A stretch of DNA of 21,115 bases from a bacterium (lineage in GTDB: Bacteria > B130-G9). Positions within the stretch are counted from its first letter, which is position 1; every line of letters starts with the position of its first letter. Both the position numbers and the translations under genes were made by a program. Shown here one piece after another: positions 529 through 20,911 of the stretch. The notes under the pieces are model-generated. The model saw only the letters and a list, made by a program, of their open reading frames with translations, did no database searches and was not told the DNA's origin. The stretch spans positions 1 to 21,115 of the forward strand of contig JAGHCW010000081.1 of NCBI GenBank assembly GCA_021160245.1, read 5' to 3'.

Positions 529-2475
529 CTAGCTATCCAGCAGGGCCTCCGATGCGAGGATATGCTTGATCGCAAACTCGCATGCCCAGGCCATAGCCTC
601 TGCCTCAAGGTGGACACCATTCGTTCTGGGTTCGTTCTTGTATCGCTGCTTATACCAATCGATGACCGCTGAAATCGGCTCGCAGACCTGGCCCGCGACT
701 CGTTCCTTGAGCAGCAATTGAACTTGAGTCTGCGTATCCCTATCGTTATCTGAAACAGCCTTTGCACGTGCGAGAACACTCGAGAGCTCGCGCCTTATCG
801 ATGCAAGCCTGCTGGCGGCCTTCTTAAGCGCTTTCGCCCCACTCCCCGCTCGCTCGGAAAGCGCAAGACGGCCAACGTTCACAGGCCCAGTGCAATAGGT
901 CTGAATTGCCTCCTGAAGCGGCATAATCTCAACGCCCTCAGTCAATATCCCAGCCTCCGAGGCGTTTATGCACTTGGCCTTTGTTCTCTTGATCTCAAGA
1001 ATAAACCAAGTAAGCCAGCCCTGCATTCCATCGGACATCTCAGTTGGCCGGCCGTGAATGTCAAGGAGTGGTTCTCTTTTGCTAAGATCGCTCGTCCTGA
1101 TCATCTGTTCACCCGCTTGTCTCAGCGCGGTCAGAGTGTCCATTGTTGTGTAGGTGTTGAGCTGGGACAGCATGTCATTGCTTGTCATCGTCCCATCGGC
1201 GTATGCCCGTCCGTACGAATAGGAGAAATCTTGCCCGACAAAGATAATCGGATCACAGGCCATCTCCCTCGCGAGGTCGAAGCCCAAAACCGCGACCGTT
1301 GAGCCGGAACCCATCAGGCCCAGCTTCTCAAAATAGGGCTCAAGCTGCTCCCAGACGATGTTGTTCATATCGGATGCAAGAAATACTCGATCGCCAAATA
1401 GCGCTATCAACTCGGGAGGCAGTCGCGTAACACCGATCAAGTTGATGCCAGAGACATCGAGTCCCGCGAAATGACGGTAGGTAATCGGCTGTGCGTCAAT
1501 CGCAAGGACAAAATCAGGTTTGATGCCGCGTGACAGAAGCGGGCGAAGGCTAGTATCCGCACAGAGCAACACCGCCTTTCCCTTCGCGCGCTTAAGCTCG
1601 TCGATGTTATTGTCAAGCGACGGTCCCGCCGACACGAGTATCGCAGGCTTATTGGGAAATCGCCCAAAGAGACTCTTGACGCCGGGGCTCTTCACTATCG
1701 CCGGCAAGTTCCTAAGGTTGTTCTTGAGCCAAATCCTCGAAAAGAATCGAAGAGTGTTGACGTTGATCTGGACTATCTTCAACACTCGATAGAGATTGTC
1801 CATTACCTCTCTGTAGCGGGGAAAGAGCGCCGCCGATGGAGGGTGTATTACGATCTTGATGTTGTGATATTTGAACTTTTTGAAGTCCTCCTGAAGCGCC
1901 GGCATTATCTCATGGAGGTCCGTGCCGACAAATATCTTCACCTCCGGCTTCGCGAGTATCGGCGTGAAATCATGCACGTGGATCGCGGCCTTGAAGATGT
2001 CAGGACTCTGCTCGATTATGAAGACGGGGCAGCCGCGCGGGATGCGATTCACGGCTTCCACCACGTGATAGCCCAGGCCAAAGCCGAGGACAATTAAGTA
2101 ATCCGCCTCTTCCAGTTTGACGGTCGAGACGTGCTCTCTGGCCTCTTTGAGAGGGTCCTTGTCAGAATGCATAAGCTTGTGCTCTCCCGACTCGGTCTTC
2201 ACCGACATCGTGGGCAACTTACTCGGAGTCGCATGGACCACAAGCTCGAGCACTTTGGGCGAATCTAAGAGGCGGTCATAGAGCCATGCGCGGCCGCGCC
2301 TTATCTCCTCGATATTCTTCGCAAAAATATCGCCCGTTGTCCTCTTGGGGGCCTCCGGTGAGATAGGTGCGACGGCGATTTGGTCTTTACCGGCCAAAAT
2401 CCGCTGCGCTTTTTCCTGAGCCGTTCGCCCTGGCTTAGCCTTCCTCGGCTCTCCCTTGCCTTTCTTACGGCTCAT
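529..2475 (-). CDS. Maf/DUF115 family (MptE-like) motility-associated glycosyltransferase-like protein
   Basis: The 648-residue protein begins with a lysine/arginine-rich tail (residues 1-30). A Rossmann-like segment follows around residues 126-160 ([13 protein letters not shown], then FIIEQSP). The DUF115/MptE-like core begins near residue 272 with [18 protein letters not shown], followed by [12 protein letters not shown] and a [14 protein letters not shown] motif. Proteins with this architecture, called Maf or motility accessory factor, transfer nonulosonic acids or similar sugars to flagellin or other surface proteins; related archaeal MptE is a pterin pyrophosphokinase. The ATG overlaps the TGA of the response-regulator gene (ATGA), so the two are translationally coupled. 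It is the last gene of the minus-strand run. I infer glycosylation of a flagellar or other surface protein; no flagellin gene is in the window. Confidence 0.82.
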
Positions 2476-3878
2476 TCTGTGATTTCCTCTGACCCATTCT
2501 CTGAGCGATATAGGTTCAGTTTATTGCGAAGCGTCCGGACCGTTATGCCCAGTAATTCCGCGGCCTTTGTCCGATTGCTATCTGTCTTAACAAGTGTGGC
2601 GAAGATCAACTTTCGCTCCATCTCTGCAAGCGAGGTCCCGACCTCAACCTCCAGCGTTCGGTCGTCGGCATGAGAGGGCGCCGTCCGCGCGGAATGTGGT
2701 CTGTGTCTCTTATGGCGGTCGAAGATCAAATCCGAAATCTCAATCCGTTTCCCCTGTGACAGCATGACACCGCGCTGAATAGCATTTTCAAGCTCCCTTA
2801 CGTTTCCAGGCCAGTCATGTTCCTGTATGAATGCCATCGTCTCTTTCGAAAGCAATTTAGGCTGCGCATCGCCATCCGGCGAGTGCTTCTTACAGAAGTA
2901 GCCGGCTAGAGGAAGAATGTCCTCCCGACGTTCACGAAGAGGGGGCAAAGTCAGCGGAACCACGTTGATTCTGTAAAATAAGTCCTCGCGGAACTGGTTG
3001 TCCTCGACCATCTTCGCCAGATCGGAGTTCGTCGTCGCGATCACTCTCGTGTCAATCGGTATCGGGAAGCTTCCACCCACACGGTCAACCTCGCGCTCCT
3101 GCAAGACCCTCAATAGCTTCGCCTGAAGCGACATCGGCATCTCACCTATCTCATCAAGCAAAATCGTCCCGCCGGATGCAATCTCGAATTTCCCCTGTCT
3201 GGTTGCATTCGCTCCGGTAAATGCGCCCTTCTCGTAACCAAAGAGCTCGCTCTCAAGTAAATTACCAGGCACAGCAGCGCAATTCACGGCAATAAAAGGA
3301 TTATTAGCTCTCCGACTCTTAAGATGAATCAGCCTCGCAACGAGCTCCTTTCCTGTCCCGCTCTCCCCCGTAACCAGAACTGTCAGATCGCTCAGGGCGA
3401 CTCTCCTCGCCAAGTAGAGCGACTCCTTGAGGACAGGAGAACAAGTAATGATCTCCCGAGTCGCCTCATTTCTTGATGAAAAAACGTCAAGGGCCTCGAC
3501 ATTGCCATCCGCAAATGGCTCGCCGAAAGCACGCTCCAGCACCGTTGTGAGGTCTGAGATCGAAAAGGGCTTTCTCAAAAAATCGAGGGCGCCCAATTTC
3601 ATGGCTAGTACTGCGGCGTCAATTGTGCCGTAAGCGGTTATCAGGACGACGAATTGGGCCAGATTCTCTTGCCGGACAACCTCAAGCAGCTCCATTCCAG
3701 AAAGCCCCGGCATTTTCATATCCGTGATAATCATGTCGAACCTGTCCTTGCGGGCCTCGTCAAGGGCTTTCTGACCGTCAGAAACAAGCACGGTCTCATA
3801 TCCCGAGTCCTTAAGCGCAACGCGAAGCGCGCTTCTCATCTGGGACTCATCATCCGCAACTAGAATCCGTGGCGCCAT
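2472..3878 (-). CDS. Sigma-54-dependent response regulator, NtrC family
   Basis: The 468-residue protein has three domains. Receiver (1-120): acidic pocket D9-D10, phospho-acceptor D53 in TDMKMPG, T81 and K103 in LRKPF. AAA+ activator (about 140-375): Walker A GESGTGKE at 171-178, the sigma-54 contact loop GAFTGA at 218-223, Walker [14 protein letters not shown] around 236-248, and arginine fingers in [12 protein letters not shown]-terminal Fis-type helix-turn-helix (about 425-457): [20 protein letters not shown]. All catalytic and switch residues are present, so it should activate sigma-54 promoters when phosphorylated. The cognate kinase is almost certainly the gene directly upstream, 27 bases away. 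FlrC/FleR/AtoC/ZraR-type regulators share this layout; the adjoining maf-like gene favours a motility or surface role, but target promoters are not evident in the window. Confidence 0.93.
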
Positions 3879-3905
3879 TGTTATCTCACTAAGAAAGCGT
3901 TAGTG

Positions 3906-5171
3906 CTAAAGCGGCAAAGCAATGATGAACTCCAATCCCCCATTATGAGGCTCTCTAACAAGCAAAAAGGCGTCATGCCTCAGAACGATTCTCTTAACAA
4001 TGGACAGGCCCAATCCCGTTCCCATTGTCTTAGTGCTGAAGAAAGGCTCAAATATCCTCGGAATCTCGCTCTTCTCGACACCTTGACCGCTGTCTGCAAC
4101 CGCGACCTCCACATAGCTCTGCGCCGCCTTCTTAGGAGACAAGATCGTATGACCCGCATCTTGAAGCTCATCCCATCCCGCAATTCGAGTCGAGACCCTC
4201 AGATTACCGCCGTCCGGCATGGCCTGGACACCGTTGATCATTATGTTGGAGAATGCCTGCCGCAAGAACCGCGGATCGCCATTCACCGTCACACGCCCAT
4301 CATCGAAGCTGCGGTGAACTGTCACGTTACCCTGATTGATGGCGGACGATGCGGTATCAAGCGACTCCTCAAGAACCGTCTGGATTGCCACCTTGCCAAA
4401 ATCCGGTTCAGGCGAGCGGGCATAGATCAGCATATTTGTTATCGACCCATCAAGGGAATCCACGGACTCCATTATGTGCGTCGCCAGCTTCTGACTCTCG
4501 GCATCGTCTTTAAGATTCCGCTCCAGTATTGAGGCGAAGAGCTTGATACTCCCAAGGGGATTCCTAATTTCATGAGCCAGATTCGCGGACATCTCACCCA
4601 TAGCGGCTAGTCTTGCGCTTCTCCGTAGTTGCTCCTCAAGCTCCGTCAGGCGAGTTATATCCGAAAAGCAGACAACATGGCCCATCTCTTTGCCATCAAT
4701 ATCAAGAAGCGGTGAGATATTGAAAGAAAGCATGACTTTTGCGCCCGATTGCGAATGAATCTCAACCACCTTGCCATCCGCGCTTTTCAGGTCAAAATCA
4801 TCCCCAAAGACCTGCCAATATCGAACGTGTTTGGTGTTGCTGTCCGAAATCCCGAGTATGGCCATTGCCGCACTATTAATCGTCGTCATTCCCCCCCGAA
4901 GATCAAGCGACACTACTCCATTCTGAATACTCTGAAGAACGTTGCCTAAATAATTCTTCAAGGAGAGCAGTTCATTGACCTTTTGCTCAAGCTCAAGATT
5001 CTTGCGCTTAACCTCCAGATTAAGCGTCTTCACCTGTTGCTGCAACGACTCATACGTTCGCTTAAGGGCGTCCGAGGCAACGTTGAATGAATCAAACGCC
5101 TGGGCTAGGAGGTCTGCATCCTTGCTGCCCAGTGGTTGGTTCTTGGGCAAATCACTATCATCCTGATTCAA
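3906..5171 (-). CDS. Cytosolic PAS-domain sensor histidine kinase, NtrB/AtoS/FlrB type
   Basis: The 421-residue protein has a helical coiled-coil N-terminus (about 30-75), one PAS domain (about 75-180; LQSIQNGVVSLD, then CFSDITRLTELE), and a HisKA dimerisation helix with the H-box LAHEIRNPLGS (phospho-accepting H200). The HATPase_c domain has the N-box SNIMINGVQAMP (N309, N313), G1 DSGQGV (360-365), F-box FEPFFSTK and G2 GTGLGLS (384-390). There is no signal peptide or membrane segment, so it senses something in the cytoplasm; partners made by the neighbouring chaperone genes are one possibility (inference). The start is TTG at 5171, preceded by AGGAGAG, which overlaps the stop of the upstream zinc-ribbon gene. 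It should phosphorylate D53 of the regulator encoded immediately downstream. Confidence 0.92.
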   Translation of the reverse strand: MNQDDSDLPKNQPLGSKDADLLAQAFDSFNVASDALKRTYESLQQQVKTLNLEVKRKNLELEQKVNELLSLKNYLGNVLQSIQNGVVSLDLRGGMTTINSAAMAILGISDSNTKHVRYWQVFGDDFDLKSADGKVVEIHSQSGAKVMLSFNISPLLDIDGKEMGHVVCFSDITRLTELEEQLRRSARLAAMGEMSANLAHEIRNPLGSIKLFASILERNLKDDAESQKLATHIMESVDSLDGSITNMLIYARSPEPDFGKVAIQTVLEESLDTASSAINQGNVTVHRSFDDGRVTVNGDPRFLRQAFSNIMINGVQAMPDGGNLRVSTRIAGWDELQDAGHTILSPKKAAQSYVEVAVADSGQGVEKSEIPRIFEPFFSTKTMGTGLGLSIVKRIVLRHDAFLLVREPHNGGLEFIIALPL

Positions 5172-5175
5172 AAGA

Positions 5176-5182
5176 CTCTCCT
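5176..5182 (-). promoter_or_regulatory. Shine-Dalgarno fixing a TTG start (histidine kinase)
   Basis: On the minus strand AGGAGAG lies just upstream of TTG at 5171 and overlaps the TAG stop of the zinc-ribbon gene. No ATG lies nearby in frame, so TTG with this site is the best start. Confidence 0.7.
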
Positions 5183-5729
5183 AATAAGCCAAGCGACCCG
5201 AGCCGCCCAGTCTCGATCTGAGACAATCATCTAACGGTTGCTGAGCCTCGATCTTCCTCATATCTAGCTCCGTTCGCAAATGAGAATGAGAGCAACTCCC
5301 TTTCTCTCCCCACATCTCTCTAACTCTCTCGCCCATGCGCTTCGCATCGTCATCATCAGGCAATAGCAGAGCCACTCTGAGCTCCGCAAGGGTCTTCGCC
5401 CTAAGCGCAAGCTCCCGCGCCTCGTCCGATAGTGGATGGCCATCAGGAATCGTGCCCAAATGACGCAGCGCCTCCTCACAAGAACCACATCCAAAACAAG
5501 CAATAGCAAGAAAGAAATGCGACTCTGTAAGATTGCCTATCAGCCTGATCGCCTCGTCAAGGTCCCGTCTTGCTGATGAATAGTCGAGGCGCATGAGATG
5601 CTCAATTCCGCGCGAAAGCGAAGCTGAGTAATCGCTGATTATCTGGGCAGCCAATCCCAAATCGATTCCACAGTGGGGACACGTTCTCGCGCTTTGCTCA
5701 ATCTTACGTTGACAATTGGGACAGACCAT
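5181..5729 (-). CDS. Zinc-ribbon protein with TPR-like helices
   Basis: The 182-residue protein opens with a zinc ribbon, C3-x2-C6 and C17-x2-C20 (VCPNC, then CPHCG). A helical part follows in which residues about 40-110 look like one to two TPR-type repeats (SSARRDLDEAIRL, then CEEALRHL). The C-terminal third is charged and shows no recognisable domain. The ATG has only a weak Shine-Dalgarno (GGGTGG, far upstream). A 79-base gap separates it from dnaK, the widest gap in the run, and 9 bases separate it from the kinase gene. Sitting between the Hsp70 gene and the kinase gene, it could act as an adaptor between them; that is inference from position. DnaJ also carries zinc ribbons, but with four CxxC motifs, so this is not a DnaJ fragment. 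Confidence 0.75.
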   Translation of the reverse strand: MVCPNCQRKIEQSARTCPHCGIDLGLAAQIISDYSASLSRGIEHLMRLDYSSARRDLDEAIRLIGNLTESHFFLAIACFGCGSCEEALRHLGTIPDGHPLSDEARELALRAKTLAELRVALLLPDDDDAKRMGERVREMWGEKGSCSHSHLRTELDMRKIEAQQPLDDCLRSRLGGSGRLAY

Positions 5730-5808
5730 CTTGCGTTGTTGCCACCCACTGCTATTCTGCTTAATCAGAGTCTCTATAGGATAAATTGGAATCTAAACTG
5801 ATGTGGAC

Positions 5809-7581
5809 CTACTCGTCTTCCTCGAGGCTATCTTGGCCCTCTTCACTCTCAACCTGACCGTACGCGTCCTCCAAGTCGAACAAGAACTCTGACAGCTCGT
5901 CGCTTTTCGCGACCACCGTATCCGAATCGTTTGTGCCTATTGCAATGTCAAGCTCATGTATCAGGGTCCGGAGCCTGTTGACCTCAACGTCAGTTACCCT
6001 AAACTCCATCCCCTCAGCGCGGGTGATCAATGCCATTGCCTCGCGATAGCTATCGGGAGTTGCTTGCTGAGGCTTGCTCTTGCTCTCCGCAAGCTCCTCA
6101 AGACTATCTTTCGCTACCTCGATGTCCTCATCCGAGAGCCTAGTCTTCGACGCCTCAATCGTTATCTGATTCGTTCTGCTGGTCTCAAGGTCCGTTGCGA
6201 CAACGGTGAGTATGCCGTTGTTGTCAACGTCGAACTTCACGCGGATAGTCTGAGAGCCGGGCGGCCCCGGCGGGATGTCATCGAGAATGAAGGTACCCAA
6301 CTTGACGTTCTCTGAGGCCCGATTACTCTCGCCCTCAAGCACGTTGATCCTAACCCTCGACTGGCCGTCAACAACCGTTGTATAGTCTTGTCCTACGCTC
6401 GTTGGAATGAACGAATGGCGCGGGATCAGACTGTCAAAGGAATCGCCAACTGTCTCCGTACCCAAGGAGTGAGATAGAATGTCCGAAAGAACAAGCTCTT
6501 TCACCTGACCGGTTATCAGACCCGCTTGAACGGCCGCCCCAAGCGCAACACATTCATCCGGATTAATGTCCTTACTCGGCTTCTGTTTTGTCCGATTCTC
6601 GACCATGCGCGCGACCATCGGTATCTTGGTTGAGCCGCCCACAAGTAAGACTTTGCCTATCTCCTGAGGCGTTAGTTCCGCGTCCTCAAGCGCTTGATTT
6701 GTAAAATCGATCGTCCGTTCCAAAAGGTCCGAGATCAGATGCTCGAACTCACGACGCTTGATCTCCTTTTTGAGATTGATGACCTTGCCATCTTTCTCCG
6801 CAATCGCTGGCACCTCGATTATCGCCTTCTGACGAGTGGATAGCTCGATCTTCGCCGCCTCGGCAGCCAACTTCAGATGCTGCATTGCCGCCAAGTCCCT
6901 GGTGAGATCAATGCCATATTCATTGGCGAACCACGACAGCACCCATTTGACTATCCTGTGGTCGAAATCAACTCCGCCGAGGTGAGAATCTCCAGTTGTG
7001 GCGATCACCTCCATTATCCCAGGATTCACCTCAATGATCGACACATCGAATGTACCACCACCGAGATCGTAAACCATCAGCATCTGATCGGATCTACGGT
7101 CGATGTCGTATGCCAGTGCCGCCGCCGTTGGCTCATTGATTATGCGCCGAACGTTTAAGCCCGCGATCTTGCCCGCGTCCTTGGTTGCTTGACGCTGGAC
7201 ATCCTGAAAATAGGCCGGAACTGTTATCACAGCGTCAGTAACAGGTTCATCAAGGAACAGCTCGACCTCTTCCTTTAGGTTCTTAAGAATCGCCGCTGAT
7301 AGCTCCTGAGGTGTAAACTCCCGACCCAGAAGATCGATACGATAGTCCGTTCCCATCTCTCGCTTGATCTCGGTTACTGTTTGCTTGGGACGAAGAACCA
7401 ACTGCCGCTTCGCCTCCTCGCCAACCAGGATCATCTGCTTTCCATCTTCCTCAATTATTCCTATTACGGATGGCGTGGTTGGCGAACCATGTCTGTTCGG
7501 GATGATCCGCGGACGCTTGTCGTCGATAATGGCCACTGCAGAATTGGTTGTCCCGAGGTCAATTCCAACTATGAAACCCAT
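5809..7581 (-). CDS. DnaK-family Hsp70 chaperone, divergent paralogue
   Basis: The 590-residue protein is a full Hsp70. The ATPase domain has phosphate-1 loop IDLGTTNS (7-14), catalytic K73 in EIKREMG, VITVPAYF, INEPTAAALAY, phosphate-2 loop DLGGGTFDVSI with T177, and adenosine motif LLVGGSTKIPMV. The substrate-binding domain begins after residue 362, and a helical lid ends in an acidic tail (EEDE). It lacks the insertion of about 20 residues that proteobacterial DnaK carries near residue 85, and the lid is shorter than E. coli DnaK (638 residues). The interdomain linker reads VLSDILSHSLG instead of the usual LLLDVTPLSLG. It follows the GrpE-domain gene by 18 bases, with GGGAG before ATG. It is probably a specialised Hsp70, comparable in kind to Myxococcus SglK, a DnaK homologue affecting fibrils and motility. 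No CIRCE element precedes it. Confidence 0.93.
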   Translation of the reverse strand: MGFIVGIDLGTTNSAVAIIDDKRPRIIPNRHGSPTTPSVIGIIEEDGKQMILVGEEAKRQLVLRPKQTVTEIKREMGTDYRIDLLGREFTPQELSAAILKNLKEEVELFLDEPVTDAVITVPAYFQDVQRQATKDAGKIAGLNVRRIINEPTAAALAYDIDRRSDQMLMVYDLGGGTFDVSIIEVNPGIMEVIATTGDSHLGGVDFDHRIVKWVLSWFANEYGIDLTRDLAAMQHLKLAAEAAKIELSTRQKAIIEVPAIAEKDGKVINLKKEIKRREFEHLISDLLERTIDFTNQALEDAELTPQEIGKVLLVGGSTKIPMVARMVENRTKQKPSKDINPDECVALGAAVQAGLITGQVKELVLSDILSHSLGTETVGDSFDSLIPRHSFIPTSVGQDYTTVVDGQSRVRINVLEGESNRASENVKLGTFILDDIPPGPPGSQTIRVKFDVDNNGILTVVATDLETSRTNQITIEASKTRLSDEDIEVAKDSLEELAESKSKPQQATPDSYREAMALITRAEGMEFRVTDVEVNRLRTLIHELDIAIGTNDSDTVVAKSDELSEFLFDLEDAYGQVESEEGQDSLEEDE

Positions 7582-7599
7582 ACAACACTCCCTATATGA

Positions 7600-9312
7600 C
7601 TAGCCACAGACAATGACTTTCGATGGCCGCAGAACTCTGTCCCCAATAAAATAACCAATCGATACCTCCTGTAAGATGAGGCCTTTCTCACAGTTCTCTA
7701 CACTCTTCGTCCCCACACAGTCATGGCGTGTCGGATTGAATATCTCTCCGACAGCAGCGATTCGATGAACATCGTGCCGCATGAGAATACCATCCAGCCT
7801 AGAAATTACCATCTCCAACGCCTCCTTCAGCCCAGAGGTCGCTCCTCCCCTTTCAATTTCCATAATACGCGAAAGATCGTCCACAACAACCAAAAATTCT
7901 CGCACGATGTCTGCCGTCAAAGCAGAAGATAACTCATCACCAGAGGTCTTGACAACTTGCGAAAAATCGCGACGCATAGATGCTATCGTGCTCCTCAAAT
8001 CAGAAAAATCCGACGGAGACGACGCAATAGAGCCGACCTCGCCAACCATCTTCGAGATATGCTCGCGCTCACGACCGAATGCCGCATCAATAAATGAGCG
8101 GAGCTTTACGATCTCTCTTGCCGTCCGACGGCTAATATCCAAACTTGCTCGAACGTCCTTGACCTCGCGGCTTACATCCGGCAAAGCCTCAATATCCCAA
8201 GCCTGATAGCGAGGCCCAAGCACGCCAATCGTCCTCTCGATGTGGTCGGAGAAACTGGCCCTTTCAAAATCGTAGAGCCGGTAACGGTCAAGATTGCCAC
8301 CAGAAAACCGTCCATGCAGGCCGCTTAGTACATTCTCCTCCAAAGCAAGATCATATTCAGATGACAAATCAGTAGCCGTTGCCTTTGAACTGCCAATACG
8401 CTCTGGCAGGGCGTCGAAATCCAATGAAGTAACCAGTGGGTTTTGCAGAACATCCCTCAGGGCAATGGCCTCCTCCGTCCATTTCGAGGGTGCGGCCTCC
8501 AGAATATCAGACTCGGACCTGTTCTCATCAAAAAGAAGTCGAACTAGTGCCTTCCTCAGAGGCAATCGGGCCTTGGCGAAAAGGGAATTGACCTTCCTGA
8601 GATTAGCCAAGTCAAGCGCGGCTACCTCCGAAAGCCGTGCGAGAGCGTCGCTAAGGTCTGACTCGCCTGAGACCAAGGCCGCAGTCGTATCCGATCCAGC
8701 CTGCTCATCAGACTCCTCAGAGGTACCCTCCATGACCTCCAAGAGGCCTTTCAACTGCTCTGCCCAATAGCGCGCCTCGCTCTTATCTCTGCTGCATTTC
8801 TTCAGCATTTCCCGCGACGATGAGCGCTTGCCAAAAGCCCAGAGCGACGCCAATTTCATTGCCTCAACCGGGTCATCAACCTTAACCGCGCTATTGAGCG
8901 CGAACTCAAATTGCCTAACAAACTCAATCTTGATGGGCTGTGCATTGAAAGCCTCGCTCAAGTCGCTCTCGGCAATCTCCCCTGAGATCAGTTCGGCCTT
9001 CTGCAGTTGAGCCCAAACTAGAGAGATACGCTTCAATTCATCGGTGTCATTCGAGATGCTTTTTCGCACATCGTTTATTTCGCTCTGAGCATCGGACAAC
9101 TGCGAGGCGAGCCGTCTGCATTCAGCCATTCTGGAATGACGATCTTTGTCTAGGAACAGATGTGTCAGACAAAAATCGACAAGAGACCTCGCATCATCAA
9201 ATGCGGCCTCACTGAAAGACTCGCTCCCCGTCGTGCCATTAGAGCCAAGAGAATCCCAGAATTCCTGTCTGCCAAGCGCCTTCGACGCCGCCTTTATTCT
9301 GCTCTTGTTCAT
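7600..9312 (-). CDS. Long helical protein with C-terminal GrpE domain (Hsp70 nucleotide-exchange factor fusion)
   Basis: The 570-residue protein is far longer than GrpE (about 170-220). Residues 473-570 match the GrpE core: FLVVVDDLSRIM, then LDGILMRHDVHRI, then the signature FNPTRHDCV and GYFIGDRVLRPSKVIV. This is the beta-domain that inserts into the Hsp70 nucleotide cleft. The first ~470 residues are new: charged, alanine/leucine/serine-rich helices with coiled-coil potential (about 60-100 and 380-470), an acidic linker near 195-215 and no membrane segment. Canonical GrpE dimerises through an N-terminal helix pair; the extended body may replace it or act as a scaffold (inference). ATG at 9312 is 5 bases after the J-like gene, whose 3' end carries a GGGGAG that may serve as Shine-Dalgarno. 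Partner: the dnaK-type gene directly downstream. GrpE-domain assignment is confident; the function of the N-terminal part is unknown. Confidence 0.85.
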   Translation of the reverse strand: MNKSRIKAASKALGRQEFWDSLGSNGTTGSESFSEAAFDDARSLVDFCLTHLFLDKDRHSRMAECRRLASQLSDAQSEINDVRKSISNDTDELKRISLVWAQLQKAELISGEIAESDLSEAFNAQPIKIEFVRQFEFALNSAVKVDDPVEAMKLASLWAFGKRSSSREMLKKCSRDKSEARYWAEQLKGLLEVMEGTSEESDEQAGSDTTAALVSGESDLSDALARLSEVAALDLANLRKVNSLFAKARLPLRKALVRLLFDENRSESDILEAAPSKWTEEAIALRDVLQNPLVTSLDFDALPERIGSSKATATDLSSEYDLALEENVLSGLHGRFSGGNLDRYRLYDFERASFSDHIERTIGVLGPRYQAWDIEALPDVSREVKDVRASLDISRRTAREIVKLRSFIDAAFGREREHISKMVGEVGSIASSPSDFSDLRSTIASMRRDFSQVVKTSGDELSSALTADIVREFLVVVDDLSRIMEIERGGATSGLKEALEMVISRLDGILMRHDVHRIAAVGEIFNPTRHDCVGTKSVENCEKGLILQEVSIGYFIGDRVLRPSKVIVCG

Positions 9313-9317
9313 CTCAA

Positions 9318-9701
9318 CTATTCAGCTCCCCTAGTTAGCGAAAGTAACGACTTAATTAGACTCTGCCGGCCTACTTCCACAGGAGATTCCGGCTTGAAAA
9401 GCTCAAAGACCTTCGACCTGTCCGGATACTCCAAAAGACTCTTGCGAATCTCATCCGAAAGAAACGCGCTCTGAACCTTGAGCACACAACCGGCCTTAGA
9501 ATTGAGAAATCCGTCAACCTGGCGACGTTTCGTTCGGTTTGATAGGAGCTGGTATGCCTCGTTTATTTCCTGTGCTCGCTTGGGGAACATCTCGTTCGGA
9601 TACTTCAGCACGAGCTTCCTTCTTGCCCGGCGAATATCGAGCTCGCTAGCTCTCTCAGAGACGCCCAAAATCTCATAAGGATTGAAATCTAGAGAAAACA
9701 A
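9318..9701 (-). CDS. J-domain-like protein lacking the HPD motif
   Basis: The 127-residue protein's first ~65 residues follow the J-domain: FNPYEILGVSERASELDIRR (helix I and start of II), ARRKLVLKY, then AQEINEAYQLLSNRTKRRQ (helix III and IV). Where a functional J-domain has HPD after 'KY', this one reads PNE (residues 35-37), and the II-III loop is shortened. HPD is required for stimulation of Hsp70 ATPase in all well-studied J-proteins, so this should be a J-like or regulatory version (compare type IV J-like proteins and Pam16). The remaining ~60 residues are helical without a recognised domain. The start is TTG at 9701 with AGGGGG overlapping the stop of the TPR gene. The GrpE-domain gene begins 5 bases downstream. 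Confidence 0.82.
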   Translation of the reverse strand: MFSLDFNPYEILGVSERASELDIRRARRKLVLKYPNEMFPKRAQEINEAYQLLSNRTKRRQVDGFLNSKAGCVLKVQSAFLSDEIRKSLLEYPDRSKVFELFKPESPVEVGRQSLIKSLLSLTRGAE

Positions 9702-9710
9702 GACAACCCC

Positions 9711-10547
9711 CTAATCTGTAAATGAAGCTAGAATCTCTTTCGCGAGACTATTCTCAGGCTCGAGTTCAATTATGGAGGCCAGCTCACTCTTTGCCAACGT
9801 CCAACTGCCAGCCCTCAAAAATTGCGTCGCGAAATACTTGTGCTTGGACAGAATCTTCTCGCCATATCCATCTTCCGGAAAGGCTTTATGAAGCGCTCTC
9901 AGGATGTCAACAGTCCGAGCCCAGCTTCGCTCCATCTCCAGCAGCGAGGCAGATGTGCCCTCGGTCGTCCGCAGTATAGCAAGCGATTGCAAAGCCTCGA
10001 GATTCGTCCCGTCAACTTTTACTGCCTCAGAAAGGACAGTAAGCGCCTCGGAGTATCGCCGCTTGGCAATGTGGGAATACGCGGACCTAAGATAGGTCTT
10101 CATAAGCAGGTCGCGCACCCAGAGATCGCCAGTGGAACGATAAACTGAGCTGAACGCCTTCAGTGCATCTTGGCTCTTCCCTTGATTGAAAAACTCCATT
10201 CCTCGCCAAACCTGGAAAATCGCGGGAAATCCCCCCGACCCCTTTGGGAAGCGCTCAAAAAGCCTCTGGACATTGACCTCCACTCGAGGCGACTTCACAT
10301 CGCAAAGCGCAATGCAAAGATCAAGAAGATAGTCGCCGATAGACCCGGCGCGGAACTTCGATAGAGCCCTACCAAGCCGCGTCAGCAAATCGGAATCATC
10401 GCAAACCGCGAGAATAAGAAGCGCCGACCGACAAATCGATGATGCGCCGTCCGCTACCCCGGACTCCACCAACTCCACCGCCTTGGTGGCGGCTTCCGGC
10501 CCATTGCCCTTCAAGGTCTCTTCTATTTTGCCCGTAAATGAAGTCAT
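9711..10547 (-). CDS. TPR-repeat protein, first gene of the chaperone operon
   Basis: The 278-residue all-helical protein has no signal peptide. A clear TPR-type pair is visible near 155-195 (AYSHIAKRRYSEALTVLSEAV, then LEALQSLAILR), and weaker helical hairpins lie near 110-140 (GMEFFNQGKSQDALKAFSSVY) and 238-275 (FLRAGSWTLAKSELASIIEL). The N-terminal ~100 residues look like diverged repeats. TPR proteins are docking platforms and several bind Hsp70s or Hsp90s by a terminal EEVD; the Hsp70 here ends in acidic residues but not EEVD, so binding is only a possibility. It is the promoter-proximal gene of the minus-strand run, with a sigma-70-like promoter about 75 bases upstream and a weak Shine-Dalgarno (GGGGG, rather distant). 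The J-like gene follows after 9 bases. Confidence 0.78.
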   Translation of the reverse strand: MTSFTGKIEETLKGNGPEAATKAVELVESGVADGASSICRSALLILAVCDDSDLLTRLGRALSKFRAGSIGDYLLDLCIALCDVKSPRVEVNVQRLFERFPKGSGGFPAIFQVWRGMEFFNQGKSQDALKAFSSVYRSTGDLWVRDLLMKTYLRSAYSHIAKRRYSEALTVLSEAVKVDGTNLEALQSLAILRTTEGTSASLLEMERSWARTVDILRALHKAFPEDGYGEKILSKHKYFATQFLRAGSWTLAKSELASIIELEPENSLAKEILASFTD

Positions 10548-10621: not shown

Positions 10622-10650
10622 AACATACTAAATCTCAGCGGCAACGTCAA
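10622..10650 (-). promoter_or_regulatory. Sigma-70-like promoter for the chaperone operon
   Basis: Reading the minus strand: -35 TTGACG (10645-10650), 17-base spacer, -10 TATGTT (10622-10627), about 75 bases before the TPR gene start. The -35 matches 5 of 6 consensus bases and the -10 four of 6. No CIRCE or sigma-32 type element is seen. Confidence 0.55.
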
Positions 10651-10824: not shown

Positions 10825-13800
10825 ATGTCTAACGTCCGTTTTAGCCGTATTCCGATGATTCTTGCTCTGCTTATTTTGAGCCATCAACTCGGCGCAGGAC
10901 GCCTCTTAAGAGCAGATGAGCCGGACTACAAATCGCTTTACGAAGCCGATGGATTCGTCAGCTCAACCCCACTTCTGCTCCAGAATGGCAACATGCTCTT
11001 CGGCTGCCATGATGGAACGGTCCGGGCAATCGATGCTGAGGGCAACCTCATCGGATTGTTCGCAACCGGCGATGTCATCTGCGCCTCACCCACATTGCTC
11101 GATAGCGGGCGAATAGCGGTAGGCTCCGTTGATGGCGCCCTCTACCTTCTCTCGGACGAGGCAGAGCTCTTGTGGTCATACAACACAGATGGACCGATAT
11201 ACGGCTCAGCGGCGGCCATCGGAATCGAGTCGCTGGTCTTCGGCTCCAAAGACGGGAAACTCTATCGCCTCTCCGCAGAAGACGCATTGCTCTGGACATT
11301 CCAGACCGGCAGCTGGATTACAGCATCTCCTGCAGTTACTCAAGATCACCTGATCATGTTCGGCTCATGGGATGAGCGATTCTATTGCATCAACGCGAAT
11401 GGGGAGCTTGAGTGGAGCCTCGATGCAGGCGCGCCGATAGCCGCCTCGGCCACAACCGGCCCAGATGGCGAAGTCTATTTCGGCACACTCTCGGGGAAAT
11501 TCTTGTGCATCAATAGCGAGGGCGAGATGTTGTTCGACTACGACGTCGGAGACGCGATTCTCTCAACGCCGACGCTGCTTGAATCGGGCGATGTTGTCTT
11601 TGGCGCAAATGACGGTCGGATATACTGCATTGAGTCTGAGGGCGCTCTTAAGTGGCGAAAGTCCACCAATGAAAACGTGGTCGCAAAGGTCGCCGTGTCC
11701 CCCGATGGCAATCTATACGTCGGCTCTCTCAACAAGTATCTATACATCTTGCGACAGAACGGCTCAACGATGCAAAAAGAGAAATTCCCAAATGGCCTAA
11801 TGGCCTCCGTCGTCTTCTCGCCGGACCAACCCCCCATCGTGGCCTGTCTAGACGGGAACATCTATGAATTACAGACCGCTCGCGGTCTCCCGGCGATGCC
11901 CGCAATGAGCGACACCGTGCCCCGTCCACAAATGACTGAAACCGAACCCGTTCAAAGGCCTCTCCCGCTCCAAGCGCCCTTCAGACCGACTGAGCTGGAC
12001 GAGGCGCTCTTCATAATCGGCTGCTCAAGAGGCGATCTTGACCAGAAGCACGAGCTCTATTATCAGGACGATTGCAGGCTCTCGCTGATCACTCAGCTCC
12101 TTGACGACCCGCTACAGATACCGCCCTTTGCATATCATATTGTCGAGCCGCTCTCGCCCAAGGCGCCGGACATCCAGGACATTCTCATTCATCAATATCA
12201 GCGGATTGACATTGCGGGACTTGAGCGCAGAACCTTCGCGCCTCATCAGGATGAATCGCCGCTGCTTTCGGCATTGATCAACCTCCATGAGACAATAAAC
12301 GACCCGCTCTCGCCCGCCGAGATCGACCAGATAGCCGCTGATACAACAGCTTTGAGCTCACACCTCCAGAAAGCAATCGCGGTGATTGTCTATGGGATTG
12401 CCGAGGCGCAGGAGATTCGGGAGCAGGCCCTTTCGGAGCTCGACTCGCAAGATCGATCGTTCATCTTCGACACTCCGATCATGCCATTCGCCTCGCGCTA
12501 CGCCGACCTGGATCAGCTGGATGAGTACTTGATACTCGCAGATAGTATCGATCATGCCGCAATGGCCGAAGCCGCCCTGATTCTATCGGCTGCTGTCGAT
12601 TCATCACTAGCGTATCTCTTTAGCGAACCACTACTAACATCCGCTGAAAATGGAATAATGTTCGACCACAATACTGCAATTGGCCGCATAACCATTGGAG
12701 GAGACGGCCCAGACATTTACGGCAGCGGCGACATCTCCGGGCCTTTCCTGCTCATTCTCGACACAGCCGGCGCAGACACCTATATCGGCCGGAGCGCCGG
12801 AAGTACTGCCTCGCCGGCCAACGGTATCTCGCTTCTTCTAGACCTCTCCGGGGACGATCTCTACTTCTCTGCAAATCGCTTCTCGCAGGGCTGTGGCAAT
12901 TTGGGCATCGGCTTTCTGCTAGACTTTTCTGGTGATGATTCATACGAAGGCGCAGATTACAGCCAAGGCGTCTCTTGCTGTGGCGTCGGCCTTCTCCTTG
13001 ATCTTCAAGGATCGGATAGCTACCTCTGTAGTTTTGCTGGACAAGGCGCGGGGAGTTACGGAGCCGGGCTACTCCTGGATGAGTTTGGCGCCGACGAGTT
13101 CCGCTGCACGGCAACCGCGCAAGGCTTCGGCTTCATAAGAGGAATTGGACTTCTGGATGGCGGTCTGGGCGACGATTTCTACTTCTCCGGCAGCGGTAGC
13201 GTTGATTTCCGGGAGAACAAACCCGGCGCAGAGCGCTACGATAGTATGGCTCAGGGCTTTGGCTGGGGTTACAGGAATGACGACGACCGCTATTTTCGCT
13301 CTGGTGGAATAGGCCTTCTCAATGACGGAGGAGGCGATGACATCTATGTTGCGGACTATTTCGCACAGGGCGGCGCTTATTGGTTTGCGGCCGGGGTCCT
13401 CTATGATCACTCGGGCGATGATCTGTACCTCGCCAGGAACTATGTACAAGGCGCCGGCACTCACGTCGCGCTCGGCATCCTCGTTGACGACGGCGGCGAC
13501 GATGAATACTACTCGTGGGCGCACGCCCAGGGAGCGGGACTCGACCTATCAGCGGGGATTCTAATTGATGAGATGGGAGATGACTACTACTCATCTGGAA
13601 GCACGTGCCAAGGCGCGGGGGTGAAGAATGCGTTTGGCCTTCTGTGCGACAGCGACGGCAATGACGTCTATGTATCTCGGGGCGAGAATCAGGGCATGGG
13701 CAGGATCAACGAAACGCTACGGAAGTATGGCAACGTCGGCTTGCTGCTCGATTTCTCCGGCATTGACCATTACTCAAAACACTCTGGACAGAACAGGTGC

Positions 13801-13920
13801 TTTACTGACGGCTATCTCGGTCTTACAATGGACTCGAATTTGGGCAGCGTGCCCTGGAAGATTCAGATCAGCAAAGAGAGCGTTCGCATGGATAATACTC
13901 GGGAGTCTGATTCACGATGA
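10825..13920 (+). CDS. Secreted PQQ-type beta-propeller protein with C-terminal GDDxY/QG tandem repeats
   Basis: The 1031-residue protein begins with a signal peptide (SRIPMILALLILSHQLGAG; cleavage perhaps before DEP near residue 32). Residues ~35-350 are a beta-propeller of PQQ-like blades, each with a 'DGxLYxLSxEDxLLWTFxTG' type pattern (KLYRLSAED, RFYCINANGELEWSLDAG, RIYCIESEGALKWR). A proline-rich linker (~350-385) and a helical region (~385-615) follow. Residues ~639-991 hold about twelve units of 25-30 residues built from GxGxLLD, GDDxY and QGxG. The aspartate/glycine turns recall calcium-binding beta-roll repeats, but the spacing is different. No C-terminal anchor or sorting motif is seen. 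It is probably periplasmic or extracellular; the propeller may act as a scaffold or ligand sensor. The stop overlaps the xseA start (ATGA). No PQQ-enzyme catalytic residues could be identified, so a dehydrogenase role is not claimed. Confidence 0.85.
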   Translation: MSNVRFSRIPMILALLILSHQLGAGRLLRADEPDYKSLYEADGFVSSTPLLLQNGNMLFGCHDGTVRAIDAEGNLIGLFATGDVICASPTLLDSGRIAVGSVDGALYLLSDEAELLWSYNTDGPIYGSAAAIGIESLVFGSKDGKLYRLSAEDALLWTFQTGSWITASPAVTQDHLIMFGSWDERFYCINANGELEWSLDAGAPIAASATTGPDGEVYFGTLSGKFLCINSEGEMLFDYDVGDAILSTPTLLESGDVVFGANDGRIYCIESEGALKWRKSTNENVVAKVAVSPDGNLYVGSLNKYLYILRQNGSTMQKEKFPNGLMASVVFSPDQPPIVACLDGNIYELQTARGLPAMPAMSDTVPRPQMTETEPVQRPLPLQAPFRPTELDEALFIIGCSRGDLDQKHELYYQDDCRLSLITQLLDDPLQIPPFAYHIVEPLSPKAPDIQDILIHQYQRIDIAGLERRTFAPHQDESPLLSALINLHETINDPLSPAEIDQIAADTTALSSHLQKAIAVIVYGIAEAQEIREQALSELDSQDRSFIFDTPIMPFASRYADLDQLDEYLILADSIDHAAMAEAALILSAAVDSSLAYLFSEPLLTSAENGIMFDHNTAIGRITIGGDGPDIYGSGDISGPFLLILDTAGADTYIGRSAGSTASPANGISLLLDLSGDDLYFSANRFSQGCGNLGIGFLLDFSGDDSYEGADYSQGVSCCGVGLLLDLQGSDSYLCSFAGQGAGSYGAGLLLDEFGADEFRCTATAQGFGFIRGIGLLDGGLGDDFYFSGSGSVDFRENKPGAERYDSMAQGFGWGYRNDDDRYFRSGGIGLLNDGGGDDIYVADYFAQGGAYWFAAGVLYDHSGDDLYLARNYVQGAGTHVALGILVDDGGDDEYYSWAHAQGAGLDLSAGILIDEMGDDYYSSGSTCQGAGVKNAFGLLCDSDGNDVYVSRGENQGMGRINETLRKYGNVGLLLDFSGIDHYSKHSGQNRCFTDGYLGLTMDSNLGSVPWKIQISKESVRMDNTRESDSR
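12739..13797 (+). repeat. About twelve degenerate protein-level tandem repeats (GxGxLLD / GDDxY / QGxG)
   Basis: Twelve units in residues ~639-991 of the propeller protein. Examples of the central block are SGDDLYF, SGDDSYE, QGSDSYL, FGADEFR, LGDDFYF, GGDDIYV, SGDDLYL, GGDDEYY, MGDDYYS, DGNDVYV and SGIDHYS, each preceded by a G-I/V-G-x-L-L-D strand and usually followed by Q-G-x-G. The DNA copies have diverged, so repeats are old or kept by selection at protein level. One unit (about 13140-13300) carries an insertion of ~28 residues. Confidence 0.85.
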
Positions 13921-16670: not shown

Positions 16671-17021
16671 CTAGGAACTGCGGCCATCTGCCCTATCCTT
16701 CAATCTCGAAATCTCAATTGCGAGCTCGGCCTTTCGATGCTCCAAATCGGAGCGAATCCCATTGCCTGAGGCGCAGAGATTGTAAAATTCGAACATCTCC
16801 GACACTTGCTGATATGAGAGCCCCGTTGATCCCCACAGATCCTGAAACTCATCTTCTGACGGCGGCGCCTTGGATTCCGGCAGGCTCTCGAGCCTCTTAT
16901 CGACCTCGTCTATCTGCTTCTGCATGGCAGCCAGATCGTTGTAGTCAATCTGGGTGCGCTTGACGGTCTCACGCGAAGGGTCTTCGTGGGCATACTGGGT
17001 GAATGATTGATATTCTGACAT
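16671..17021 (-). CDS. Small 116-residue helical protein of the virion-like module
   Basis: The frame is open from 17081, but I start at ATG 17021 (a second ATG at 17024 is adjacent), because AAAGGAG lies just ahead and this removes an overlap with the preceding gene's coding end. The resulting product is 116 residues. It is charged and largely helical (IDYNDLAAMQKQIDEVDKRL near 25-45, RSDLEHRKAELAIEISRLKD near the C-terminus), with coiled-coil potential. No catalytic motif or known family is recognised. The upstream 930-residue gene ends 10 bases before it. Similar short coiled-coil proteins often accompany fibre or tail genes in phages; that comparison is by context only. Confidence 0.6.
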   Translation of the reverse strand: MSEYQSFTQYAHEDPSRETVKRTQIDYNDLAAMQKQIDEVDKRLESLPESKAPPSEDEFQDLWGSTGLSYQQVSEMFEFYNLCASGNGIRSDLEHRKAELAIEISRLKDRADGRSS

Positions 17022-17026
17022 CATCT

Positions 17027-17033
17027 CTCCTTT
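17027..17033 (-). promoter_or_regulatory. Shine-Dalgarno that decides the start of the 116-residue gene
   Basis: Minus-strand AAAGGAG followed by AG and ATGATG; spacing favours the second ATG (17021). It overlaps the TAA of the 930-residue gene. Confidence 0.6.
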
Positions 17034-19824
17034 ATGACGACGGGCTGACGAGGTATTTGTTTGCGACAACGACCACTCCATAAGGATCGGTCGTAAAGAT
17101 GCCCTTTCGCTCGTATTTCCAATAGAGGGTCTGTCCCGGATTGAGAGGCATCAGACCCTTGGTGACGACCGCCCTTGTGTGCCCGCTGGAGTTTGCCGAG
17201 CTCGGTATCGTGTCGCCTCTGGCCTCGCTATCTGTTACTAATCTTGCCTTTGACGTTAGAATACTGGTTCCCGAGCCGGTGCAGAGATCACATTCCAGAT
17301 ACGCGCCGGCGCCGTCCCCTGTGCTCTCAACTGAGAAGTCCACTGTGTCAATTACAGTCGGGGCCTCCAACAACCATTCATTGGCCGTGAAGTCCGAATC
17401 AGCCTTGCTGGACGAACTCGTTCCATCATGGCCGCGCATCTTCTCAAAGGCCTTTGGGTAGGGCTTATATCCAGAGACCGTGTTGTCAAAAGCCTCGACC
17501 GGCACCGGGTCGCCGAGATCGACCAGAACAACTCCCAGATTGACTGGGCTGACGTCTATCTGATTTGTGCCTGCAGCCCAGACTTGTCCGATGCTTTTCA
17601 GCTCTTTGCCGAACGAGATGATCGGTTGATAGTCCCCTGCTGTGCCTGACACATAATAAGCCCCCCCTGCCGTGAATGTCCTGCTTGGGTGTTTGTAAAG
17701 CCCCTTCATCACAACTTCGGCTATGAATGGGCCGTTTTCGCCTTCTTCGTAATTCGGATTCTCTACACACGACTTGCAGATGCCACGAAGAAGCGTGTGC
17801 TGCTCCCAAGAAGCCGGACAGACCCAGTCGGAAGTGACATCCATGTCCACCGCGACCCCCTCCGATATCATGGTCTCGGACCAGAATATCCCATGAACCT
17901 GGCCGATCTCATTTCCGTCGTCATCGCCGCCACCGCCCTGCTTGCCGTAATTGTGAATGTCCACAAGTACACCGCCCGGATCACCGCCTCTACCCCAGCC
18001 GACACGGACCTTCCATTGGCCAGGCCCAAAAATGACGCCCTTTGCCCAAGAACCCGGACTGCCCCAAGGGTTGAGGAAATACTCGCCATCCACATAGCTG
18101 CTGTCCGCGTCATAGACATTTGGCGGCCTCACAAGAGAACATCGCGTGTTCGTGGCATTCACCGCGGCAATGATGCCAATCACGTCCTTCTTATCATCGT
18201 CAGTCGCAACCGTTCGGTGTCCAATGGAGCTGCCATCAAGGTATATGGCGTCCCCAACCGAGACCTCAGAGTCGCAATCAACATCGAACCACTGCTCCGG
18301 GTCATCTCCGCCACCACCAATTATGGTCGCGGGCCCGCAGATGATCCTGTACTCTGCGCCAGCGTCATCAAGCTGAATACAGGCCTCCTGAACAAGATGC
18401 CCAGCAGTTATCGACCGCGTTGGAACCGCCTCACCCTCAATTGTCGTTGAGATATAGAAAATCGTGCCCTTGCTGCTCGGCGTCAATCCACCAGGACACA
18501 AGCCATCATGATCGTCCACAATCCATACGTAGTCAGGCATCCCAACCTGGCAATACGAGGCGCCGGGGGCAGCAATAACAATGCCAATCGCGGCCATTGT
18601 GGCGGCGGCGTTGGCTTTAGCCTCGTCCACCGTGTCCGGCTCATCTATGCACCTGCGCACGAATTCCCCGTGGGCCACTCCGGCCTTGAACTTGTAGTTG
18701 CCTGGTTCCGGGTCATCGCCCTTAACGTTCTTTCTCGCATCACCGATTTGTATCTTGATCTTCGTGGAACTGAGCGCTATGCCCATGCACTGGTCCCACT
18801 CTCCGGGCGTCTTGTTCCGCGTTTGAGTAATACGTCCTGTGGCGGTGCTCAAATAAGCCTGTTGCCCGTATATCAGGCTGTCATAGGACGTGGTCTTGTT
18901 ATCAAAATCAAAGACGCCTGAACTTCTCACCGTGCAAAATGCCTCGTCCAGAATCTCCTCGACGAAACCGACGCCGGGGACTGCGCTGTCATCATCGGCA
19001 TCCGCCCGGCCAACCATACTCGGCCCACAGATGCAGACTGCGTCGCCGGATAAAACCCCAGACCCGTATTGGTATTTGCTCACGTCCCCTGTCCCGTGGC
19101 CGCTGGGGTCGCCTGTGTCATACGGCGCCTCGATAAACGTATTGACTATATTCTCATCAGATACATTAACGCTATCTTGCAGAAAAACGATGGCAAGCGT
19201 CTTGCTTTCCGGCACGGCCGGGGGATTGCCGCAAACCGAACGGGATGCCGCCTCATAACCTTCCGAGAAACCGACGGCGCCAGAGACCTCCAACACGACC
19301 CGAAGCGGCTTTGTCCAGCCCGGATTCTCAAATGTCACGGAGGAGAAGCTCAGTGTTCCCCCGTTGTACTCAACGAGCTGACCAGCAATCTGGCAGTTGG
19401 CCTTCGATATGTTCACGCTGGACGACGCCGGGGATGTTGCCGAGACCCATAGCTGCCCAGCGACCCTGTGAACGTCAATTATCGGCTCACGATACTGCTC
19501 GAGCATACGCTTGTTATTCGCCGTGCCTCGCCCCCAATATGACCAAGTCAGGTCATCTGGAGCATCAGTTGCACAGTGAAGCACGTTGCCATTCAATGGG
19601 TTCACATAGACGCTGCCTGGACCCGGCGCGGTGTCCGTGAACGAGACGGTGAACGTCCCATTCACGTCTCCTGTGCAAGAGATCGAGTACTCGGTGTCCG
19701 GCACTTCGCAAAGCGAGTACTTGTAGGCGCCAGCAGAAATCGAATGCTCCTCATTCTCGATCTCTGCCGGCTCAGAACGCTCATCTACAAAATCAATGAA
19801 CTCAGGATTGTCTGGATATGCCAT
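17032..19824 (-). CDS. 930-residue beta-rich protein resembling phage tail-fibre or capsid-decoration proteins
   Basis: There is no signal peptide or membrane segment. Residues ~45-112 show GTFTVSFTDTAPGPGSVYVNP and DLTWSYWGRGTANNKRMLEQ, a pattern seen at the N-terminal end of many tail-fibre/tip proteins, where a strand-turn 'Y-x-G-x-G-T' precedes a trimer helix. At least six degenerate modules follow, near residues 260-304, 320-360, 455-497, 523-565, 575-612 and 719-760, each with a G-D/G-A-x-Y-x strand, a GSS/GTA-type turn and an I/V-G-x strand, reminiscent of DUF2190-like decoration domains. Four to six glycine/aspartate-rich linkers separate them, and the C-terminal ~120 residues are beta-rich. 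GGAGG stands 10 bases before ATG. It probably forms part of a particle appendage; family membership is inferred, and no homolog has been checked. Confidence 0.65.
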   Translation of the reverse strand: MAYPDNPEFIDFVDERSEPAEIENEEHSISAGAYKYSLCEVPDTEYSISCTGDVNGTFTVSFTDTAPGPGSVYVNPLNGNVLHCATDAPDDLTWSYWGRGTANNKRMLEQYREPIIDVHRVAGQLWVSATSPASSSVNISKANCQIAGQLVEYNGGTLSFSSVTFENPGWTKPLRVVLEVSGAVGFSEGYEAASRSVCGNPPAVPESKTLAIVFLQDSVNVSDENIVNTFIEAPYDTGDPSGHGTGDVSKYQYGSGVLSGDAVCICGPSMVGRADADDDSAVPGVGFVEEILDEAFCTVRSSGVFDFDNKTTSYDSLIYGQQAYLSTATGRITQTRNKTPGEWDQCMGIALSSTKIKIQIGDARKNVKGDDPEPGNYKFKAGVAHGEFVRRCIDEPDTVDEAKANAAATMAAIGIVIAAPGASYCQVGMPDYVWIVDDHDGLCPGGLTPSSKGTIFYISTTIEGEAVPTRSITAGHLVQEACIQLDDAGAEYRIICGPATIIGGGGDDPEQWFDVDCDSEVSVGDAIYLDGSSIGHRTVATDDDKKDVIGIIAAVNATNTRCSLVRPPNVYDADSSYVDGEYFLNPWGSPGSWAKGVIFGPGQWKVRVGWGRGGDPGGVLVDIHNYGKQGGGGDDDGNEIGQVHGIFWSETMISEGVAVDMDVTSDWVCPASWEQHTLLRGICKSCVENPNYEEGENGPFIAEVVMKGLYKHPSRTFTAGGAYYVSGTAGDYQPIISFGKELKSIGQVWAAGTNQIDVSPVNLGVVLVDLGDPVPVEAFDNTVSGYKPYPKAFEKMRGHDGTSSSSKADSDFTANEWLLEAPTVIDTVDFSVESTGDGAGAYLECDLCTGSGTSILTSKARLVTDSEARGDTIPSSANSSGHTRAVVTKGLMPLNPGQTLYWKYERKGIFTTDPYGVVVVANKYLVSPSS

Positions 19825-19833
19825 GTTGAATAA

Positions 19834-19839
19834 TCCTCC
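19834..19839 (-). promoter_or_regulatory. Shine-Dalgarno of the 930-residue gene
   Basis: Minus-strand GGAGGA nine bases before ATG at 19824; it supports this start. Confidence 0.55.
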
Positions 19840-19880
19840 ATCTTCGGTTGCTCATCGCAATTGAGCCGGGCCTTGGGTTC

Positions 19881-20900: not shown

Positions 20901-20906
20901 ATTATT

Positions 20907-20911
20907 TCCTG
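20907..20911 (-). promoter_or_regulatory. Shine-Dalgarno selecting ATG 20900
   Basis: Minus-strand CAGGA at 6 bases from ATG; the alternative start at 21035 has no such site and would overlap another gene. Confidence 0.45.

Follow-up and report, generated by a model that had tools for sequence, protein, structure and literature searches.

A non-canonical Hsp70 module shares a conserved operon with a predicted flagellum-associated kinase pair and a Maf-type glycosyltransferase in Candidatus Coatesbacteria

We analyzed an eight-gene operon at positions 529-10547 of a 21,115-nucleotide stretch of bacterial DNA (the window), which is a whole contig (JAGHCW010000081.1) of a 3.43-Mb draft genome (G000), and compared it with three relatives from the same Candidatus (Ca.) Coatesbacteria family (G001-G003); the next kin beyond these are related to the window genome only at domain level. 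All eight open reading frames (ORFs) lie on the minus strand. The first three, from the promoter end, encode a 278-residue TPR protein (9711-10547; Pfam TPR matches), a 127-residue J-like protein whose J fold was recognized by Pfam DnaJ, AlphaFold and Foldseek (9318-9701), and a 570-residue GrpE with a unique helical N-terminal extension of ~440 residues (7600-9312; Pfam GrpE). A second DnaK (590 residues, 5809-7581) is separated by 79 bases (5730-5808; 66-74 bases in the relatives) from a gene for a zinc-ribbon (CPNC...CPHC) and TPR-like protein (5181-5729), identified by its invariant cysteines and a family match. The last three genes specify a histidine kinase of the FlrB/FleS/FlgS kind (3906-5171; Pfam HisKA and HATPase_c, weak PAS), an NtrC-type sigma-54 activator response regulator that is FlgR/FlbD-like (2472-3878; Pfam and model scores) and a Maf-type (MptE-like) putative flagellin glycosyltransferase (529-2475; Pfam). 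The original prediction had described these genes as separated by gaps of 5-27 bases, with a single gap of 79. Strand, place and order were as described, and the junctions from the TPR gene to the Maf gene measured 9, 5, 18, 79, 9, 27 and -4 bases, the last being a 4-base overlap and not a gap. Pfam supported all eight of its gene labels, and "J-like" is an apt name for a protein that has lost the His-Pro-Asp (HPD) motif; NCBIfam supplied an equivalog name for none of the eight proteins.

The eight-gene order is not unique to the window and is conserved in all four genomes of the family. It is complete on a single contig in G003 (L035), and it is spread over two contigs in G001 and G002, where the break falls within grpE and dnaK, respectively. 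Protein identity to the window ranges from 30 to 80% across three genera, and the flanking genes differ. The TPR protein has orthologues in G001, G002 and G003, and an orthologue of the J-like protein was found in 4/4 family genomes and 0/382 others (at least 235 bits versus at most 47). The GrpE fusion is full length in G002 and G003 and present as two halves in G001, and its only matches in the named collection were two Ca. Coatesbacteria metagenome-assembled genomes (JAFGIT010000043.1 and QMNL01000024.1). Two of the three relatives match these assemblies, and on that basis we place the window in Ca. Coatesbacteria. Thus, the prediction that a dedicated, non-housekeeping Hsp70 module is joined in one conserved operon to a kinase/NtrC pair and Maf held up when gene order was compared across genomes. 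Upstream of the first gene we identified a sigma-70-type promoter (TTGACG-N17-TATGTT, 10622-10650, minus strand), which reads TTGACG-N17-TATAAC in G001 and G003; a promoter of this type is what early regulatory genes would be expected to have. Heat-shock regulation of the operon was considered and rejected: no sigma-32-type or CIRCE (controlling inverted repeat of chaperone expression) element was obvious by eye upstream of the operon, and the sigma-70-like promoter is conserved.

We found that the Hsp70 part of the operon departs from the canonical DnaK-DnaJ-GrpE machine. As in the canonical machine, the Hsp70 and GrpE have full domains and a J fold is present; unlike it, the operon has a J protein without HPD, a GrpE with a 440-residue extension, a DnaK whose linker is altered and which has no EEVD-type tail, and additional TPR and zinc-ribbon/TPR partners. 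In the AlphaFold model of the J-like protein the four J helices are kept (residues 8-12, 20-33, 40-54 and 56-66; predicted local distance difference test score, pLDDT, ~73-90 over residues 1-70), and a Foldseek search matched J domains (best E 2.4e-3, probability 1.00). The tripeptide in the loop between helices II and III, where HPD is expected, reads YPN in the window and (Y/F)PN in 4/4 orthologues. It has been previously reported that DnaJ H33 touches the DnaK linker and D35 touches DnaK R167 (PMC13012618), and that HPN and QPD changes abolish J stimulation (PMC13254874). The GrpE domain scored 80 bits in Pfam and occupies residues 450-569 of the fusion, whose structure model is weak (mean pLDDT 58). 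The operon DnaK matched Pfam HSP70 with 585 bits over its full length and has complete nucleotide- and substrate-binding domains; it falls under the NCBIfam DnaK equivalog cut-offs, lacks the subdomain-IB loop (~24 residues) and carries the linker ELVLSDILSHSLG versus the usual DVLLLDVTPLSLG. In the zinc-ribbon protein, which also contains TPR-like repeats, the four cysteines are invariant in 4/4 genomes.

The window genome encodes a separate housekeeping set, with dnaK-dnaJ on contig C116 and grpE beside another dnaJ on C45, so that two canonical DnaJ proteins are present. In a tree of DnaK sequences, a branch with 98/95 support split the module-type DnaKs (together with G248_b and G112) from 21 other, mostly single-copy DnaKs; branches are long and the inner order is unsure. 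A recent duplication of the housekeeping DnaK was rejected as the origin of the second DnaK, as the housekeeping DnaKs of Coatesbacteria group with those of other genomes (100/100). We also observed that a MerR-like gene (FSIGVVAQMLDVHPQTLRHYERKG), similar to that of the heat-shock repressor HspR, comes after the housekeeping dnaK-dnaJ pair at L040:23-3432, and that grpE lies elsewhere, beside another dnaJ (L039).

Related modules occur outside the family. We searched 386 genomes with a DnaK-subfamily profile whose members were the Coatesbacteria DnaKs and that of G019; these members, G305 and G166 scored at least 736 bits, and all others at most 723. The gene order in G019, G305 and G166 is TPR-J-like fusion, GrpE, DnaK and zinc-ribbon/TPR, and in G268 and G131 it is J-like-TPR, GrpE, DnaK and zinc-ribbon/TPR. 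The tripeptide equivalent to HPD is altered in every case (NPE in G019 and G305, DPE in G166, HPP in G268 and G131). The Coatesbacteria TPR and J-like genes show a weak collinear match to the end of the TPR-J fusion of the other lineages, in which TPRs stand just before the J-like domain, and no homology was found between that fusion and the N-terminal part of the window GrpE. The window zinc-ribbon protein and its family orthologues are homologous to the product of the gene after dnaK in G019, G305 and G166 (hhalign probability 97.4). None of these five outside genomes has a kinase, NtrC or Maf gene beside the module, and the canonical grpE-dnaK-dnaJ clusters of G023, G017, G027, G044, G048 and G054, as well as the grpE-dnaK cluster of G036, likewise have no histidine kinase/NtrC or Maf neighbours. 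Taken together, these comparisons indicate that the Hsp70 part is a distinct non-canonical module (TPR, HPD-less J-like protein, GrpE, loop-less DnaK and zinc-ribbon/TPR protein), which also exists elsewhere without the flagellar genes of the operon. In G305, the module stands directly downstream of an HrcA-like gene and of a canonical dnaJ (L263:10434-16708), the latter being a possible source of a working J protein.

The two-component pair downstream of the module has relatives in flagellar loci. We searched 145 genomes with a profile built from the four family kinases and read 11 of the best outside matches in context. An outside kinase relative was followed by an NtrC-type regulator and then by flgB/fliE/fliF/fliG in G057, G027, G094 and G137, and by such a regulator and fliF/fliG in G089; in G082, the kinase relative is divergent from flgBC-fliEF. 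For these neighbours, FliF was confirmed by Pfam in four outside genomes and FliG in one, and the small FlgB and FlgC were called by sequence reading. The window kinase shows no long hydrophobic stretch and is probably cytosolic. Its partner has the Pfam domains Sigma54_activat, Response_reg and HTH_8, and among the five sigma-54 activators of G000 that were scored, it was the sole match to the FlgR model with E <1e-100 and the best scorer with FlbD. We therefore assign the pair, on these similarities, to the flagellum-associated sigma-54 kind (FlrBC/FleSR/FlgSR). Like FlrBC of Vibrio, FleSR of Pseudomonas and FlgSR of Campylobacter and Helicobacter, it combines a HisKA kinase without evident membrane spans with an NtrC-type regulator, has relatives beside flgB-fliG and occurs with sigma-54 sites at rod and flagellin genes; unlike them, it stands with an Hsp70 module and Maf and not beside basal-body genes. 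The activity of FlgS, FlrB and FleS has been reported to depend on the MS (membrane and supramembrane) ring, rotor and export core, and in the Vibrio and Pseudomonas kinases this dependence may run via an unknown factor (PMC7064773). As separate observations, several other lineages (L183-L189) have a small FlgN-like gene and one for a large TPR-like protein upstream of the flagellar kinase, a place that is taken in Coatesbacteria by the zinc-ribbon/TPR gene; and 4/4 family genomes encode an ~1,800-residue protein with a Ser/Thr protein kinase-like start and a sigma-54 activator domain at its end (L118:2178-7640 on contig C86 of G000, and equivalents in G001-G003).

All four genomes carry three flagellin-type genes (including FlgL), FliS and FliG, and the sigma-54 gene rpoN was found in three of them and not in the G001 assembly. 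Genome-wide counts of the exact sigma-54 consensus TGGCAC-N5-TTGCW were near those of a reversed control, and we used upstream windows and the observed form TGGCAC-N6-TGCT in its place. This form lies upstream of flagellin-2 in 4/4 genomes, 63-69 bases upstream of flgF in the three examined (G000, G001 and G003) and less than 200 bases upstream of flgB in the three regions examined (G000, G002 and G003). In 357,521 bases of Coatesbacteria sequence we counted 14 such sites versus ~0.7 expected from simple base frequency, and 10 of the 14 precede flagellin-2, flgF or flgB. Flagellin-1 is preceded in 4/4 genomes by a sigma-28-like element (TAAA-N15-(T)CCGATAA). Two adjoining flagellin-FliS pairs are found at L056 (contig C67 of G000) and L061 (contig C155 of G001); the promoter is sigma-28-like for one pair and of the sigma-54 type for the other, which suggests early and late filament proteins. 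The 5' leader of flagellin-1 (L056:10241-10541; also L059, L061 and L062) is itself conserved in 4/4 genomes: after the sigma-28-like promoter come two hairpins, the first of which reads GGGCA-(A/C)GGA-TGCCC and has a GGA loop, and then CACGGAGGA before the start; this looks like a putative CsrA-type control of flagellin translation.

Maf (motility-associated factor) proteins form a family of flagellin glycosyltransferases. The window protein scored over the Pfam cut-offs for both Maf_flag10_N (34.2 bits) and MptE-like (136.4 bits), and the MptE/Maf gene is present exactly once in each of the four genomes, always as the last gene of the operon. In its domains and its single copy in flagellin-bearing genomes it resembles other Maf glycosyltransferases; it differs from them in lying in a regulator and chaperone operon, not beside flagellins, and in missing the cut-off of the PseD model. 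Given flagellins in all four genomes and what is known of the family, flagellin glycosylation is the natural role to predict for it.

We propose that the locus is a flagellar-biogenesis operon of Ca. Coatesbacteria that recruited a non-canonical Hsp70 module, and we assign this reading a probability of about 0.5. The flagellum-associated pair and the sigma-54 sites at flgB, flgF and flagellin-2 indicate that clients and targets are most likely flagellar. In the proposed mechanism, the TPR/J-like and zinc-ribbon/TPR proteins would bring clients to the second DnaK, which GrpE would reset, and the J-like protein, having kept its fold and the proline of the lost motif, may serve as a docking or brake subunit instead of an ATPase trigger. 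The Coatesbacteria clients would be flagellar subunits (flagellins and rod/hook proteins), kept soluble so that Maf can glycosylate them and they can be exported, and the kinase, like FlgS, FlrB and FleS, would read basal-body assembly and switch on sigma-54 flagellar genes. That the recruited Hsp70 probably keeps these subunits export- and glycosylation-competent is the step that we infer. In Pseudomonas aeruginosa, DnaK binds FliC and DnaK repression blocks FliC export (PMC11816700). Our results reshape the original prediction. It had likened the module to the Hsp70 SglK of Myxococcus surface motility; the link to motility stands, with the flagellum as the organelle in place of SglK-type motility. 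It had foreseen sigma-54 targets and a pathway ending in the glycosylation of surface proteins; the sites that we found point to flagellar proteins rather than to generic surface proteins, and Maf is a co-transcribed partner rather than a demonstrated target of sigma-54.

Several points weigh against this reading. The link between the Hsp70 and flagellar proteins is a prediction from genes, and the combined operon is limited to four genomes of one family, two of them split at contig ends. No sigma-54 site was found upstream of the operon itself. The regulator scored below the curated FlgR and FlbD cut-offs (380 and 425 bits versus 750), so the pair is filed as a flagellum-associated kind and not as FlgR or FlbD, and the best-scoring outside kinase relative comes from G034, a genome without a FliG match (86% complete). 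Among the outside module genomes, FliG was detected in G019 and G305 and not in G166 (91% complete), G268 (97%) or G131 (100%); at least two of them (G268 and G131, probably also G166) appear to be without flagella, which argues that the ancestral job of the core module was not flagellar.

A rival explanation is that the non-canonical Hsp70 performs general or envelope-related proteostasis and in this family is only transcribed together with the flagellar pair and Maf. It would account for a core module without two-component system or Maf in five outside genomes, two or three of them lacking FliG, for a gap of 66-79 bases between dnaK and the zinc-ribbon gene, and for an operon promoter that is sigma-70-like rather than flagellar. 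We nevertheless consider a mere bystander rather unlikely: the order has been kept across three genera despite the sequence divergence and the differing flanks noted above, and the core module's own zinc-ribbon gene is found beyond the gap, together with the kinase, where junctions are of 9 bases or overlapping. Furthermore, no terminator-like site was detected between dnaK and the zinc-ribbon gene, and such sites across the operon region were in no excess over chance.

A closer coupling, along the lines of the original prediction, in which the Hsp70 or the zinc-ribbon protein binds the kinase or regulator and chaperone load, or a held flagellar intermediate, tunes sigma-54 output, seems improbable to us. 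The zinc-ribbon/TPR gene is immediately upstream of the kinase in 4/4 genomes and the kinase is probably cytosolic, but nothing that we found supports an input of chaperone folding state or client load into the kinase, the closest outside kinases stand beside flgB/fliF with no Hsp70 gene in the stretches examined, and the occurrence of the module without kinase pair and Maf shows that such wiring is not intrinsic to it. Finally, that the second DnaK runs on housekeeping DnaJ while the J-like protein has no Hsp70 role is very improbable: the window DnaK retains the Arg before IINEPT (the R167 equivalent), canonical DnaJ proteins are at hand in G000 and just upstream of the G305 module, and the reported HPN and QPD changes abolish stimulation, yet each module found has a J fold with altered HPD, of which there are three sequence variants, always at the same operon position and with altered DnaK linkers, which points to selection rather than decay.

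Three further known systems come close to the proposed flagellar module. E. coli HscC with DjlB and DjlC, J proteins with HPE (PMC13254874), also pairs a specialized Hsp70 with altered-HPD J proteins; by the literature description, to which the comparison is confined, the window differs in that its J protein has Asp replaced by Asn and has lost His, and in having its own GrpE and zinc-ribbon/TPR genes. Myxococcus SglK, compared by description only, is likewise a second Hsp70 of the DnaK type; a motility trait depends on it, and it is not induced by heat (PMC8265645). Its role is in social motility and fibrils, whereas a flagellar role is proposed here. In the mitochondrial import motor, Pam16/Pam18 places an HPD-less J-like subunit at an Hsp70 serving transport, and the window's HPD-less J-like protein could dock to or restrain its Hsp70 as Pam16 does; the operon has no membrane anchor or J partner, and the likeness is an analogy only. 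We tentatively suggest, as a possibility held at less than even odds, a separate and widely scattered bacterial Hsp70 lineage that cycles its ATPase without HPD stimulation and that in Coatesbacteria became a dedicated flagellar chaperone, tied by its operon to a sigma-54 checkpoint and flagellin glycosylation. This touches on two open questions, that of Hsp70s devoted to one organelle and that of a real job for J domains without HPD; J proteins with altered HPD were called enigmatic by a 2026 review (PMC13254874). Since a J domain without HPD turns up repeatedly in one gene module across several lineages, each time with its own DnaK and GrpE next to it, the second question can be tested with purified proteins. 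The operon also links a chaperone, a flagellar sigma-54 checkpoint and flagellin glycosylation genetically in an uncultured group; among open-licence papers we found no study of Coatesbacteria flagella, the sole paper naming both being a taxonomy review with one mention of each.

Elsewhere in the window, three successive minus-strand ORFs of 136, 930 and 384+ residues (16671-21113) have no Pfam match and no convincing PHROG match (best E 0.008), and may be what remains of a prophage or surface structure at the end of the contig. Divergent from the operon, positions 10825-13920 encode a 1031-residue protein in which a PQQ/BamB-like beta-propeller precedes many GDD-rich repeats of the type GLLLDFSGDD.

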